Of a stretch of DNA of 64,000 nucleotides, positions 10,488-15,651 are shown piece after piece (within the stretch, counting starts at the first letter, position 1; the number at the start of each line of letters is the position of its first letter). The stretch lies in the NCBI RefSeq assembly GCF_012974865.1, contig NZ_CP043633.1:1612001-1676000 (forward strand), given 5' to 3'. The translations under genes were made by a program, and so were the position numbers. Under the pieces are notes generated by a model. It worked only from the letters and a program-made list of their open reading frames with translations. It did no database searches and was not told the DNA's origin. This DNA is from Nonlabens sp. Ci31. Lineage in GTDB: Bacteria; Bacteroidota; Bacteroidia; Flavobacteriales; Flavobacteriaceae.

Positions 10488-10806
10488 GTGCAATTATGCC
10501 GAATTTCTGCCGAAAAATTACTGGTTTAGGTTGTGCTTATTTGAACCTAGTTTGATCTGTTTGAAGGAATAAGTAGCCTTTTTTACCTACCTTTAATTAT
10601 TTATACTTACAATTTTCAATGGCATTATTCCAAACCTCCGTACTTAAATCCCACTTAGCTCGATTAGACCAGACCGCTGTTGACAAGGCGTATAAAAAAT
10701 ACCAAGCCTACTTCTGGAATACCACCATTCAGGAAAATATCAAAACGGCCAAAGAGGAACAGTACCAGGCCACCTTCTTGCACGAGCTGTTTGTAAATAT
10801 CTTGGG

Positions 10807-10820
10807 CTATACCCTATACC
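10807..10820 (+). repeat. 7-bp tandem duplication (CTATACC)x2 causing frameshift
   Basis: Two perfect copies of CTATACC followed by a partial third (CTAT). One copy gives the in-frame family sequence GYTLFPNPD; two copies lead to the early TAA at 10841-10843. Confidence 0.85.
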
Positions 10821-10905
10821 CTATTCCCCAATCCAGATTCTAACCTGACCACAGAATTTAAGAACGAGAAAAATGCGCGCAAGGCAGATGCTGCCATCAC
10901 TACAA

Positions 10906-10925
10906 CAAGGGGTTCAAACCCCTTG
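10906..10925. repeat. REP-like palindrome A in the IIG nuclease domain
   Basis: CAAGGGGTTCAAACCCCTTG, imperfect only at the centre, flanked by ACTACAA and ACATCTAC. Read as RGSNPL between the catalytic Asp and the ExK strands. Confidence 0.8.
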
Positions 10926-10944
10926 ACATCTACTACCACTACAA

Positions 10945-10964
10945 CAAAGGGTTTAAATCCCTTG
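10945..10964. repeat. REP-like palindrome B in the IIG nuclease domain
   Basis: CAAAGGGTTTAAATCCCTTG, 39 bp (13 codons) after palindrome A with the same flanks; read as KGLNPL. Confidence 0.8.
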
Positions 10965-11151
10965 ACACCTACCGTAATGGCAGTGATAGAACTCAAGGGA
11001 ACGAATACGAGAGATCTGGAGAGCATCCGGCGCCAGGCATTTGATTACAAGGCCAACCAAAAAGGCTGCGTTTATGTGATTACCTCCAACTTTGAAAAGC
11101 TGCGGTTTTATATCAATGATGCAACAGAATTTGAAGAATTTGATCTGTTTA

Positions 11152-11167
11152 CGCTTTCGCGAAAGCG
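11152..11167. repeat. 16-bp palindrome, copy 3
   Basis: Perfect copy inside the IIG gene, read as LSRKR. Confidence 0.9.
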
Positions 11168-12397
11168 GTTTGACCTGCTATATCTGTGCCTGCATTTAGA
11201 TAAGGTGCTCAACAATGTACCGCTTAAAATTAAGGAGGCGTCCATTGCTGAAGAGGAGCAGATTACCAAAGCATTTTATAAGGATTACTCGGTTTTCAAA
11301 CGCGAACTCTACCGGGATCTGGTAAAGAATAATGTTAAAACGGTAAAGGCTAAACTGAGCGGTGGCGGTGATGCAGACGATCAGGAAGATAGAGATCGTC
11401 TGGAAAAGAACGTGCGGTTAACGCTGTTTAAAAAATCGCAGAAACTGATTGACCGTTTCCTATTTATCTTCTTTGCAGAGGATAGAATGTTGCTGCCATC
11501 CAACTCTACACTACAGATTTTGAACAAGTGGAAGGACGATTGGGATTTTGGCGATGAGCGCTCATTGTACCAGCTGTTCCAACAATACTTTACGTTCTTA
11601 GATCAAGGACGAAAGGGAACCGAGAAGCGTGCGGAAATCTATGCCTACAACGGTGGATTGTTCAAGCCTGATGCTATTCTGGATGCATTGGAAATTGATA
11701 ACGACTTGCTTTACAAATACACACTCAAATTATCCAACTATGACTTTGAAAGCCAGGTGGATGTCAACATTCTAGGACACATTTTTGAAAACTCCCTTAA
11801 CGAGATCGAAAGTGTCAATGCAGAGATTGAAGGCGGCGAGTTTGACAAACAGACCAGCAAACGCAAGAAAGACGGCGTTTTCTACACCCCTAAATACATC
11901 ACTAAATACATTGTTGAAAATACTCTAGGCAAACTCTGCGAGGAAAAGAAAGCAGCACTGGGCTTTGATGAGGAGCAATATTTTAAGGGTCGTAAGAATA
12001 GGAACAAAGACACCATTGTAAACCTGGTCGCCATACTGGACGATTACCGCGAGTGGCTGTTGCAGATTACCATTTGCGATCCTGCCTGTGGTTCTGGTGC
12101 TTTTTTAAATCAGGCGCTGGACTTTTTGATCAAGGAACACACCTACATTGTCGAGCTCAAGACGAAGATCCTGGGCGGCGGTTTACAGTTTCCAGACATC
12201 GAGAATACCATTCTAGAAAACAACATTTATGGTGTGGATCTCAATGAGGAAAGTGTGGAGATTGCAAAACTATCCCTATGGCTACGTACCGCACAACCGC
12301 GCCGCAAGCTCAATGATTTAAGCAGCAATATCAAATGCGGGAACAGCCTGATCGACGATAAAAAGGTAGCGGGTGATAAAGCCTTTAAGTGGGAAAC

Positions 12398-12413
12398 CGC
12401 TTTCGCGAAAGTG
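12398..12413. repeat. 16-bp palindrome, copy 4 (one mismatch)
   Basis: CGCTTTCGCGAAAGTG inside the IIG gene, read in frame as AFAKV at the junction where the HUH-like insert begins. Confidence 0.8.
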
Positions 12414-12778
12414 TTTCAGGAGAAAAATAAGAAAGCCTACCACATCACAACTGCTATTCACGACAGCCGCACATCAGATAGGATGCGCAAGTATAAGGTT
12501 CGGGAAAAAAGAGAAGCAGGTACGAACCCATACCCTAATGTCATCTACTTTACCCCAACCGAGGATCAACTCATCACAGAAACCATTGCCGAGGTTGTAC
12601 ATGAAAACCAGCTCCATTTGTTGGCTTATAATATATGTGGAGATCATATACATCTATTGTTAGTTTGCGAACTAGAGGAAATACCCTCTATTATGCAAAA
12701 GATAAAAGGCCGCACTTCATACAAGCACGGGCAATATAATAAAGGAACAGAGGATCAAACGGAAGTAACAACACACGA

Positions 12779-12798
12779 CAAGGGGCTTAAGCCCCTTG
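12779..12798. repeat. REP-like palindrome C inside the HUH domain
   Basis: Perfect 20-bp palindrome CAAGGGGCTTAAGCCCCTTG, followed by ACA as in copies A and B; read as KGLKPL within a low-complexity linker between the HUH motif and the C-terminal part of the domain. Confidence 0.85.
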
Positions 12799-14395
12799 AC
12801 AAAGAAACCGTAGAGGAAAAACAACACCAGAACACCCATAAAAAACCCCTCTGGACGCAAAAATACAGCGCCCCAAAAGAAATCACGACGGAGGAACAAT
12901 TGCAAAACACGATCAAATATATCAAGGGCAATCGCAAAAAGCACGAACTGCCCCCACACGATAGGGATCTACAAAACGCTATTGATAACATGTGCTGCGG
13001 TGTGAACGATGCGTTTAAAACAGAATATTCTGGAGGATTTGATGTTGTGATTGGGAATCCGCCTTACCTACTATGTCAGTAATCTAACACCAAAGAGGAT
13101 TTATTGAAAATTTATATGGAGTTTGAGGTTGCAAGTTATAAGGTTGATCTCTATCATCTCTTTTTTGAAAGGTTGATACATCTTCTCAAAACTGATGGGA
13201 TTTTGGGGTTCATCACTCCTAACACTTATTTGACCAATCTATATATCGAGCCATTGAGAAAATTTATTTTGGATAAATCTTCGATATATAAATTAATCCG
13301 ACATGACGAATCGGTTTTTCCTGATGCAAGCGTTGATACTGCAACCATAATCTTACGATTGAATCATGAAACAAATTTGGCCGAAATAAATAGAACACTA
13401 GATCATCAGGTCGTGTTTTCGCACCAAATAAATACGCAGGATTGGAGAACAAACACCAACCTAATTTTCAATACTTCAAGCGAAAAGATGTTAGAGTTAA
13501 AAGGCACAATTCCATTATCGGATTGTTTTGAATCCTATTTTGGAATACAAGCCTACGACAAGAAAACATCTACATCTGAAATCAAAACCAGCAACCATTA
13601 CAAACCAATAGTAAATGGGAAAGATTTTAATAAAAACACACAAGCAATTCATGAGTATTGGTACGATTACCAACCTCAAACCATTAAATCTGGAGGAGAC
13701 TGGAATGTGTGTAATCAACCAAGAGTTTTAATAAGACAGATTGGATCAGTTCCCATTGCCGGATATTGCGAGGAAGGTATATTAGCATCAAACACTATTT
13801 ATAATTTATATCCAAAAAAGCATATTGATCAAAAGAGCGTTTTACAATTAATGACAATCATCAATTCTAAGTTGATAGCATACCTATGGAAAACGAACTA
13901 TTCTGACGAGAAGAAAACATTTCCAAAGATTAAAGGTTATCAACTGAAATCTCTGCCTCTACCGAAATCTTTTGGATCTAATGATTCTAACCTAACAGAT
14001 TTATCAAAAAAGGTATTGCGCCTTAATAATTCACTTTTAAGATTAGTAGGCGATTTGGCTTCTTATATAAAAGCTGTTTTGAAAGGGGAGACCAGTTCAA
14101 AACTACAATCCTGGCACGAACTCACGTTCGCCGATTTCCTAAAGGAGCTCACCAAAGCCATAAAAGCGACCAATAAAGTCCGCATCAAAGAAGGCCATTC
14201 CCCCATACCAGAATTAACCAAAAAAGACGAGTTTGAATGGATGGAACTCTTTGAACCTAAAAAACAAGAAGCCCAGAAACTACAAGCACAAATTAAAGCT
14301 ACTGAAAAAGAAATCGACCAGATGGTTTATGAGTTGTATGGGTTGAGTGAGGAGGAGATTTTAATAGTTGAGGGGAGTTAGATAAAAATAAGTAA

Positions 14396-15256
14396 ATGTC
14401 AGAAAACACAGTTTATCATTACACGTCATTAGAAACGCTTTATAATATAATCAATGAGGCTAGTGAAACACATTTAACATTGAGAGCTACGCACGTTGAT
14501 TTTTTAAATGATTTCACAGAACATACCATAGCGGTAGACTTATTAAAAAAAGCATTAATTAAATATGATACTGGTCTTAATGGTCGAAGATCAAAAGACC
14601 TTGCCACTATGCTAAATGATAAGCGAATGTCATTTTTTAGGATAAGTGAATTTGATGAAATGTATCTGCATATTATATCCTTTTCAGAACATGGTGACAG
14701 TCTGCCAATGTGGAACACTTATTCAAACAAATCCAATGGTGTGGCATTAGGTTTTGATAAAGTTAAATTAAAAAAGTTTGCGTTATCAAAAGGATATAAG
14801 TTAGAAAGCTGTGTTTACGATGCTAAAATCTATGAAGATTATTTGTCTCAAAATATCCAAAAAATCCACGCCAGTATCAATGTTAGTTCATACAGTATAG
14901 GTTTTACAAGCGATCTTGAATTAAGCGTACTTAAAGAACACTATAAGTATCTTCCGATCTTAAAGGATAAAAGTTATAAGTATGAAGAAGAGCGTAGATT
15001 GATCATACCGGTCAAAATTAAAGAAAAGGATACCCTAAAATTCCATACAACTGATACCTTGTTAAAACCTTACAGGGAGATTTTAATTCCTTTCGAGTAT
15101 CTAACTGAAATTGTTTTGGGGCCGTGTTTATCGTCAGAGAAACTATCTACTGCTCTCGCTCTATTTTTAGGTCAAAAGAAAAAAAAATTAAGTCGTGAGA
15201 AGAATCCAGAAAAGATTTACTTAAGAAAGAGTGAGTGTCCTTATCGCAATATCTAA
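14396..15256 (+). CDS. DUF2971 family protein
   Basis: A 286-residue protein beginning MSENTVYHYTSLETLYNIINE, with THVDFLNDFTE, then FSEHGDSLPMWNTYS and NGVALGFDK, the characteristic order of DUF2971 (HYTS opening, FNDP-like segment, MWxxYxxxxxGxxxGF). Near the end EERRLIIPVK is the usual acidic/basic motif. The biochemical role is not established; such proteins are often found next to restriction and other defence genes. It starts 14 bases after the IIG gene ends and is followed by a duplicated fragment of the IIG tail, so it was probably carried with that module. It appears intact. Confidence 0.8.
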   Translation: MSENTVYHYTSLETLYNIINEASETHLTLRATHVDFLNDFTEHTIAVDLLKKALIKYDTGLNGRRSKDLATMLNDKRMSFFRISEFDEMYLHIISFSEHGDSLPMWNTYSNKSNGVALGFDKVKLKKFALSKGYKLESCVYDAKIYEDYLSQNIQKIHASINVSSYSIGFTSDLELSVLKEHYKYLPILKDKSYKYEEERRLIIPVKIKEKDTLKFHTTDTLLKPYREILIPFEYLTEIVLGPCLSSEKLSTALALFLGQKKKKLSREKNPEKIYLRKSECPYRNI

Positions 15257-15269
15257 AGTAAAATTGAAT

Positions 15270-15320
15270 ACCGACCTGATGGTTTATGAATCGTATGGGG
15301 TGACGGAGAAGGAGATTTAA
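15270..15320 (+). pseudogene. Duplicated 3' tail of the type IIG gene
   Basis: Read in frame this gives TDLMVYESYGVTEKEI and a stop, matching DQMVYELYGLSEEEI at 14317-14364 in the intact tail. It is a leftover of a second IIG-like C-terminus, now separated from the first by the DUF2971 gene. Confidence 0.7.
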
Positions 15321-15356
15321 GCAGTGTATAATAGTTAATTTTCGAGACAGTAAAAT

Positions 15357-15651
15357 ATGAAAGCAAACGAACTACCCATCAGTAATTTTTTAACAATCAC
15401 CTAATGTGCAATTTGTGATTCCTGTGTATCAGCGTAATTATAATTGGACAAATAGCGAGTGTAAAGAGTTACTCAACGATGTAATTGCCGTTGAAAAACA
15501 CGATAGAGGTACGCACTTCATTGGTAGCATTGTTTTTATTCATGAAGGAACTTATAGTACCAGCGAAGTTAAGAACGCTTTAGGACTACTTCGATCAAAT
15601 GGCACTTTGAAATATTTTATGATCAGAGTTTCTTCAATGTTCATGGCGTAA
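15357..15651 (+). pseudogene. DUF262 (GmrS-like) gene fragment, frameshifted and truncated
   Basis: The ATG at 15357 opens MKANELPISNFL; the frame then breaks after a T6 run and continues one register away as SPNVQFVIPVYQRNYNWTNSE, with IPVYQRNYNW the hallmark nucleotide-binding motif of DUF262/GmrS. HFIGSIVF follows, again typical. After about 80 residues similarity is lost (ALGLLRSNGTLKYF) and the frame ends at 15651. DUF262 is the NTP-hydrolysing half of type IV GmrSD-like restriction enzymes, normally several hundred residues with an HNH partner (DUF1524), which is absent. Here it is only a relic. Confidence 0.75.

Follow-up and report, generated by a model that had tools for sequence, protein, structure and literature searches.

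In a 64,000-nucleotide stretch of the genome of Nonlabens sp. Ci31 (contig NZ_CP043633.1, positions 1,612,001 to 1,676,000; hereafter the window), a type IIG restriction-modification gene carries in frame an extra domain of the HUH (Y1/TnpA_REP-like) type. We consider it probable that this is a single-strand transposase domain resembling the RAYTs, the tyrosine transposases associated with repetitive extragenic palindromes (REPs), nested in a permissive loop of the enzyme between methyltransferase motifs I and IV and behaving as a cassette. A nested RAYT-like transposase is the simplest account to cover the fold, the fixed site, the presence and absence of the insert, the conflicting histories of insert and host, and the palindromes found in the carrier genes.

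A HUH domain inside a type IIG enzyme

The inserted domain occupies positions 12417..13031 (+ strand, as for all features given here), between VF and GGFDV of the methyltransferase, its limits being taken from insert-free alleles. It amounts to 205 extra codons in the frame of the open reading frame (ORF) 10923-13082 and ends 6 codons ahead of motif IV. An earlier interpretation of the same DNA, made from the sequence only (the sequence-only reading), had noticed an extra block of about 200 codons between motifs I and IV, and the insert-free alleles now delimit it. Its assignment to a HUH domain within a type IIG enzyme holds by profile, fold and conservation. The Pfam family Y1_Tnp (PF01797), the profile it had named, reaches 33.6 bits with the ORF and 37 bits when only the insert is scored, against a cut-off of 23, and a whole-genome scan with this family recovers the insert too (32.5 bits). 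The NCBIfam equivalog REP_Tyr_transpos (cut-off 80 bits) was missed, with 42 bits for the insert and 36.6 for the ORF, and we therefore name the domain RAYT-like rather than file it as a member. The NCBIfam IS200 equivalog was missed as well (31.3 bits, cut-off 55).

The HUH motif H-I-H is located at 12645..12653, and the stretches GDHIHLLLV, LWTQKYS and TIKYIKGNRKKHELP pointed out by the sequence-only reading are all present. The catalytic Tyr had been sought in GRTSYKHGQY; this stretch proved variable. The conserved candidate is the Tyr of YIKGN (12918..12920), invariant in two alignments, and its motif Y-I-x-x-N occurs in 107/107 extracted inserts, followed by R or H, not P, in the rows seen. 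The HUH motif and a Tyr, other than the one proposed, are thus conserved among homologous inserts, in which the motifs read DH[ILVM]H and YIxxNR. A whole-protein model of the relative P0003 gave a predicted TM score (pTM) of 0.40, which makes the domain arrangement unreadable; its best PDB matches are the methyltransferases BrxX, CamA, M.BseCI and M.TaqI.

Judged from its sequence, the host gene (10619-14381) encodes a type IIG enzyme of the Eco57I/TaqI_C type, with nuclease, methyltransferase and specificity domain in one chain, here broken into pieces. It shares the common architecture of these enzymes: PD-(D/E)XK nuclease, helical spacer, N6-adenine methyltransferase and TaqI_C-like specificity domain. 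The N-terminal piece in the first frame (10619..10843, from the ORF list) matches the PADLOC profile REase_MTase_IIG with 70 bits over profile positions 1-71. The frame changes within 10797-10843, the second frame being open from 10797. The nuclease loop (10887..10997) runs from the D of KADAAI (10887-10889) to the ExK of IELK (10989-10997); D and ELK are invariant across a 66-row alignment of relatives. The main open piece (10923..13082; 618 bits with REase_MTase_IIG) comprises the nuclease end, the helical spacer, motif I (DPACGSGAF, 12078..12104), the insert and motif IV (IGNPPY, 13050..13067), and ends at an in-frame TAA (13080-13082). The C-terminal piece (13104..14381), with the remaining methyltransferase, the TaqI_C specificity domain and C-terminal helices, is supported by REase_MTase_IIG and by PF07669 and PF12950, the Pfam matches in the gene. 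A metagenome contig protein, P0001, is 98% identical to the searched part and ends with its contig; 484 residues precede its motif I versus 427 in the window's open frame, so that its N-terminal part lies in a single frame. Since the host gene is broken in Nonlabens sp. Ci31, the nested element is probably a relic in this strain.

Distribution and histories of the insert

Proteins were collected by searches seeded with the window sequence and with protein P0099 of the Flavobacteriaceae bacterium MAR_2009_75, the best 120 matches of each being kept. The sample of insert-free proteins is dense near these two sequences and thin elsewhere, and many source contigs are metagenomic. The insert is matched by 149 proteins (E<=0.001); among the 120 matches listed, 119 have PF01797 and 85 exceed 1100 aa in length. 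Wherever the borders can be read in relatives, the insertion site is identical. The broken host gene could suggest a transposase insertion that arose by chance or has decayed and is confined to Nonlabens sp. Ci31, but the breadth of the matches and the constant site refute this explanation, to which we give almost no credence.

Whole genomes of the family contain the insert in 5/299 cases. Across the phylum sample, a profile of seven inserts matches 16/395 genomes: inside type IIG genes in G000, G318, G342, G323, G349 and G485 (the last confirmed by Pfam), and in open frames of 132-224 codons, with weaker scores, in the other ten. In the order sample, under a stricter limit, the matches in 4/395 genomes (G000, G939, G990 and G693) are all within type IIG genes. 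By sequence, a HUH domain nested in a type IIG enzyme is thus a widespread architecture. No insert match was found in phages, plasmids or viral contigs, the viral scan having used two patterns only. Automatic JGI names of several of the proteins already combine the two parts, as "type I restriction-modification system DNA methylase subunit/REP element-mobilizing transposase RayT". We found no description of a RAYT or HUH domain within a type IIG enzyme in the literature covered (titles, abstract openings and open-licence PMC papers).

Insert-free members have a two-residue spacer at the site (mostly EN or EK in the rows printed) in place of the approximately 200 residues. Among proteins lacking the HUH pattern, the distance from KCGNS to NPPY is 38 residues in 203/206, 50 or 52 in two, and 214 in P0017, which has an altered HUH; carriers have 90-99 residues from KCGNS to the HUH motif in 107/107 cases. 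At the borders of the insert, compared by eye at 8 carrier loci beside insert-free loci, no transposon-like ends were found, that is, no shared terminal palindrome or target duplication. A tree was built from the host part upstream of the insert with 324 of 353 proteins (29 incomplete ones dropped); the census of both forms on it gave 113 with the insert, 204 without and 7 unclassified. Presence of the insert changes at least 16 times on this tree, and shuffled labels need 72-83 changes (20 shuffles, 291 rows); presence is therefore clustered, yet neither single-origin nor loss-free. Identities of insert and host are weakly correlated (r 0.35, 99 proteins). The hosts of P0074 and P0078 are 67% identical and their inserts 91%; those of P0011 and P0294 are 92% identical and their inserts 36%.

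Four close pairs of alleles with and without the insert were compared. P0239 (with) and P0267 (without) agree at 90/94, 447/461 and 436/476 positions in three aligned blocks, and their only length differences are GLNPL and a 193-aa insert. P0004 and P0254 differ by SDTSRDLSPL, a 185-aa insert and KKATMSTDLSPLDAY, with three residues in the opposite direction, and P0307 and P0291 by REHAPL and a 182-aa insert. Three of the four close pairs thus differ by the insert plus palindrome peptides and by nearly no other insertion or deletion. By these alignments, near-identical alleles either have or lack the insert, which resembles a tolerated mobile cassette more than a fixed component with a function. 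The "domesticated transposase" of the sequence-only reading agrees with the conservation of the domain and with its in-frame position, but not with this variation among close alleles. Its other proposal, a coupling of modification to nicking, found no support, P0239 and P0267 being nearly identical throughout the three blocks. In the P0099 clade (13 carriers, 92 non-carriers), 5/40 insert-flanking columns differ at p<0.01 versus 11/285 control columns, a linkage over short flanks that is weakly consistent with exchange of short tracts or with local adaptation.

The domain could instead be a working defence part, for example one that nicks invading DNA in single-stranded or hairpin form, or senses it, with the methyltransferase protecting the host. 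In favour, catalytic motifs are kept among inserts as little as 32% identical, and the fused form occurs in several families of the phylum. But self-propagation would retain these residues as well, the near-identical pair P0239/P0267 (N-module 98%, target-recognition domain (TRD) 96% identical) differs in having the domain, and the insert is present in 5 of the 39 family genomes that encode the host protein (E<=1e-60). We regard a defence role as unlikely.

A second functional explanation, that the HUH domain drives a programmed exchange of the target-recognition half, appears highly improbable. The insert does end close to the point, motif IV, at which alleles diverge, and carrier pairs with P0099 are 92-94% identical in their N-terminal parts and 20-36% after motif IV. 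However, similarity between alleles collapses directly after motif IV with or without the insert, so that exchange of the specificity half is a general trait of this enzyme family, which the domain does not bring about. At N-module identities of 0.90-0.95, the median TRD identity is 0.23 in 4039 insert-free pairs versus 0.24 in 73 carrier pairs, an equal divergence on which the idea was rejected; at >=0.95, carriers retain their TRD more often (identity >0.8 in 0.545 of carrier pairs versus 0.133 of insert-free pairs, several of these carrier pairs being near-duplicates). Nor is there support for the insert travelling with the specificity half: for P0074/P0078, the inserts are 87-93% identical and the parts that follow 24-32%.

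Palindromes and neighbouring features

Three 20-bp palindromes lie in frame in the window gene; like the broken state of this gene, they had no mention in the sequence-only reading. Palindrome 1, CAAGGGGTTCAAACCCCTTG (10906-10925, read as TRGSNPL), and palindrome 2, with one mismatch to the search pattern (10945-10964, TKGLNPL), are in the nuclease loop. Palindrome 3, CAAGGGGCTTAAGCCCCTTG (12779-12798, KGLKPL), is perfect and is located in the variable linker between the HUH motif and the Tyr. In the 3.74-Mb genome, the 22-base pattern ACAAGGGGNTNNANNCCCTTGA with <=2 mismatches finds these three sites (10906, 10945 and 12779) and no other.

Carrier genes hold palindromes in the nuclease loop, in the HUH-Tyr linker, where they were seen at the DNA level, at the insert's right end and in the C-terminal portion; these palindromes are read in more than one frame. 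The loop from KADAAI to IELK has 39 aa in the window gene and exceeds 19 aa in 24/91 carriers, versus a length of 19 aa in 199/200 insert-free proteins (22 more carriers and 4 more insert-free proteins were unmatched by the pattern). Among proteins >=950 aa, a strict peptide motif is found outside the insert in 23/89 carriers versus 1/190 non-carriers. The peptide of the single non-carrier, P0250, is also that of the carrier P0239, and P0250 may, on this similarity, have lost its insert. A palindrome peptide within the insert is present in 67/89 carriers of this size, its position inside the insert not being separated.

At the DNA level, a CAA[GT]G[GA]-type palindrome is present in 15/16 carrier genes, namely those of eight carrier loci (the L075 row being the same gene as L013) and of G318, G342, G323, G349, G939, G990 and G693. 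The sixteenth, G485, has a different 22-bp palindrome in the HUH-Tyr linker and another about 25 bp past the gene. This type is absent from 28 non-carrier stretches (0/28), 4 of which have other, mostly A+T-rich palindromes. Exact CAAGGGN8CCCTTG occurs 37 times in the 16 carrier genomes: 20 copies in the gene, 4 within 200 bp downstream (two in G342, one each in G323 and G349) and 13 elsewhere. G485 and G693 have no copies by this pattern, and in 12/14 genomes with any copy, all are in or beside the gene. Within the family sample, 5/5 carrier genomes have palindromic copies (<=1 mismatched pair), versus 9/294 others (p 1e-7). After correction for the tree the support is weaker. Where the state stays constant along a branch, 12/13 gains of loop length belong to carrier branches, whose share of the length is 66% (p 0.036), and a further 3 gains lie on the few branches where the state changes. 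That palindromes lie inside the host genes carrying the domain lends indirect support to the hairpin recognition imagined in the sequence-only reading, and the palindrome-sprinkled host genes suggest a mobile DNA element resident in another enzyme that it leaves intact. In one carrier, L067 (G047:C88), the frame breaks inside the HUH linker exactly at a palindrome, where two open frames overlap.

Several observations weigh against this link between domain and palindromes. The similar, mostly intergenic palindromes of the 9/294 family genomes stand without an insert in a type IIG gene (one of these genomes, G072, has a relative of the domain fused to CobB), and most of 12 examined copies outside the type IIG gene are intergenic. 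Most copies are elsewhere in two carriers, 4/5 in G123, which also has five stand-alone Y1 genes, and 9/11 in the L014 genome (G1009), so that hairpins there are either not confined to the gene or moved by something else. The branch-length test is modest, and an independent-pairs test on the tree is not significant, informative pairs being too few (of 8 supported pairs, an average of 1.7 go in the expected direction, 0 in the opposite one, and 6.3 show no difference). The palindrome type differs between outside and inside the insert in 5/10 type-B proteins. A REP foot GT[AG]G is found within 8 nt of only 4/31 palindromes, and CGTC at 0/31. The fourth close pair, P0012 and P0222, differs at the insert site alone, with no palindrome peptide difference outside it. 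The palindromes could therefore be unrelated to the domain, generic REP-like elements of Bacteroidota mobilised by other transposases and tolerated in loops of genes that are traded horizontally. Against this stand the 24/37 exact copies in or beside one gene, the close pairs in which insert and palindrome peptides change together, and the lack of the CAA[GT]G[GA] type in non-carrier stretches; we hold an unrelated origin to be rather unlikely.

The two in-gene copies of the L014 genome share the core GGGAGCATGCTCCC, which is absent from the other nine; those nine have cores of the TTTTAA and CTTTAG kinds. P0222, which is insert-free, has the peptide NPSLREGTTKQSLEN at the HUH site, presumably the translation of another dispersed repeat, which could also be counted in favour of unrelated palindromes. 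With this repeat-like peptide, the HUH insertion site may be a hot spot.

A 14-bp palindrome of another kind, GCTTTCGCGAAAGC, has 11 exact copies in the window (173, 8763, 11153, 17402, 21095, 22459, 35546, 41413, 49932, 54219 and 56957; none in 100 shuffles at <=1 mismatch) and is hugely over-represented in the genome, with 487 exact copies versus 0 for the reversed control. A one-mismatch copy is present at 12399-12412, just left of the insert, and the insert-free relative L069 has the same bases. Downstream, a DUF2971 protein (14396-15256) adjoins the restriction gene, matches the PADLOC candidate PDC-S31 with 33 bits and possibly belongs to a small defence island. A short remnant (15406-15651), which we take to be DUF262/GmrSD-like, matches the N-terminal part of the PADLOC Orf5, HEC-06 and SspE profiles. 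A 54-bp stretch at the end of the type IIG gene (14315-14368) is repeated with 81% identity downstream of the DUF2971 gene (15272-15325), as if an older copy of the restriction gene had its end at that place.

Relation to known systems and significance

The comparisons below refer to portions of the cited papers. Like the insert, TnpA_REP/RAYT proteins combine a HUH and single-Tyr fold with hairpin-type palindromes, subclass 2.4 especially (PMC6006769). They are described there as separate genes, whereas the insert is nested in another enzyme, and in a REPtron the separate gene is flanked by REPs, whereas here the palindromes are inside or just downstream of the host gene. Subclass 2.4 is the nearest precedent (Quentin et al. 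2018, PMC6006769): there the transposase gene itself holds REPs, placed in frame after HuH and before Y. The type IIG insert carriers likewise have in-frame palindromes inside the gene. Its motifs are NH[IFV]H and YIxNNP, in contrast to DH[ILVM]H and YIxxNR in the inserts. That study discarded unexpectedly long proteins as fusions or annotation errors, and its main text has no words beginning with methyl, restriction or Eco57I. The TnpA_REP of E. coli cleaves and recombines single-stranded REP at a CT beside the hairpin and requires the GTAG foot (PMC8266576). With 27/31 palindromes lacking such a foot, recognition here would have to differ. IS200/IS605 TnpA (IS608, ISDra2) has a like fold and HUH/Tyr order, but no IS-like ends were noticed at the borders of the type IIG insert. 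The Rickettsia palindromic elements, and GTAG/CGTC REPs inside ORFs, are also short in-frame palindromes in protein genes; they lie in varied genes, whereas here the gene itself encodes the candidate mobiliser (PMC3733652).

A further fusion is found in G072 (L055, G072:C54:939000-950000; L122), where a 621-codon frame has a C-terminal RAYT-like HUH domain on a CobB/CbiA-type cobyrinate synthase (GATase_3 135 bits, CbiA 62, Y1_Tnp 48). The domain bears the same marks as the type IIG insert (SRISDR, DHIH and YIRNNHYKH), with three CAA[GT]GG palindromes inside the CobB frame or at its end and a fourth about 4 kb off. A different Y1-like domain (NHFH, YVHKNP; 22.7 bits, just below the cut-off) is found with coproporphyrinogen oxidase (456 bits) in a 490-codon frame of L115 (G153:C3), which from its sequence may be another kind of in-frame fusion or a misread start.

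Mechanistically, the nested domain would bind and cleave the palindromes as single-stranded hairpins by the chemistry of TnpA_REP. It would copy hairpins into its own gene, in cis, and only in-frame insertions in loops would survive. Cassettes could pass between alleles mostly by homologous recombination through the short conserved flanks, perhaps started by HUH nicks, and residence in a horizontally traded restriction gene would carry element and hairpins together. More tentatively, and with appreciable doubt, we propose a mobile element at home inside the coding sequence of another enzyme. This single-strand transposase domain would enter restriction-modification alleles at one conserved position, would not splice itself out and would place its own hairpins in frame into the host gene; at least one genome also has it fused to an unrelated gene, that of a CobB/CbiA-type cobyrinate synthase.

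RAYTs have been described as separate genes with REPs spread genome-wide; here, the candidate enzyme is found within one host gene that is traded between bacteria, and in the majority of carrier genomes its presumed targets are all in or beside that gene. Allele pairs in which insert and hairpins are almost the sole differences would offer a compact natural system for how REP-like hairpins arise and move. For the enzyme family, the methyltransferase loop before motif IV tolerates a domain of 200 residues.
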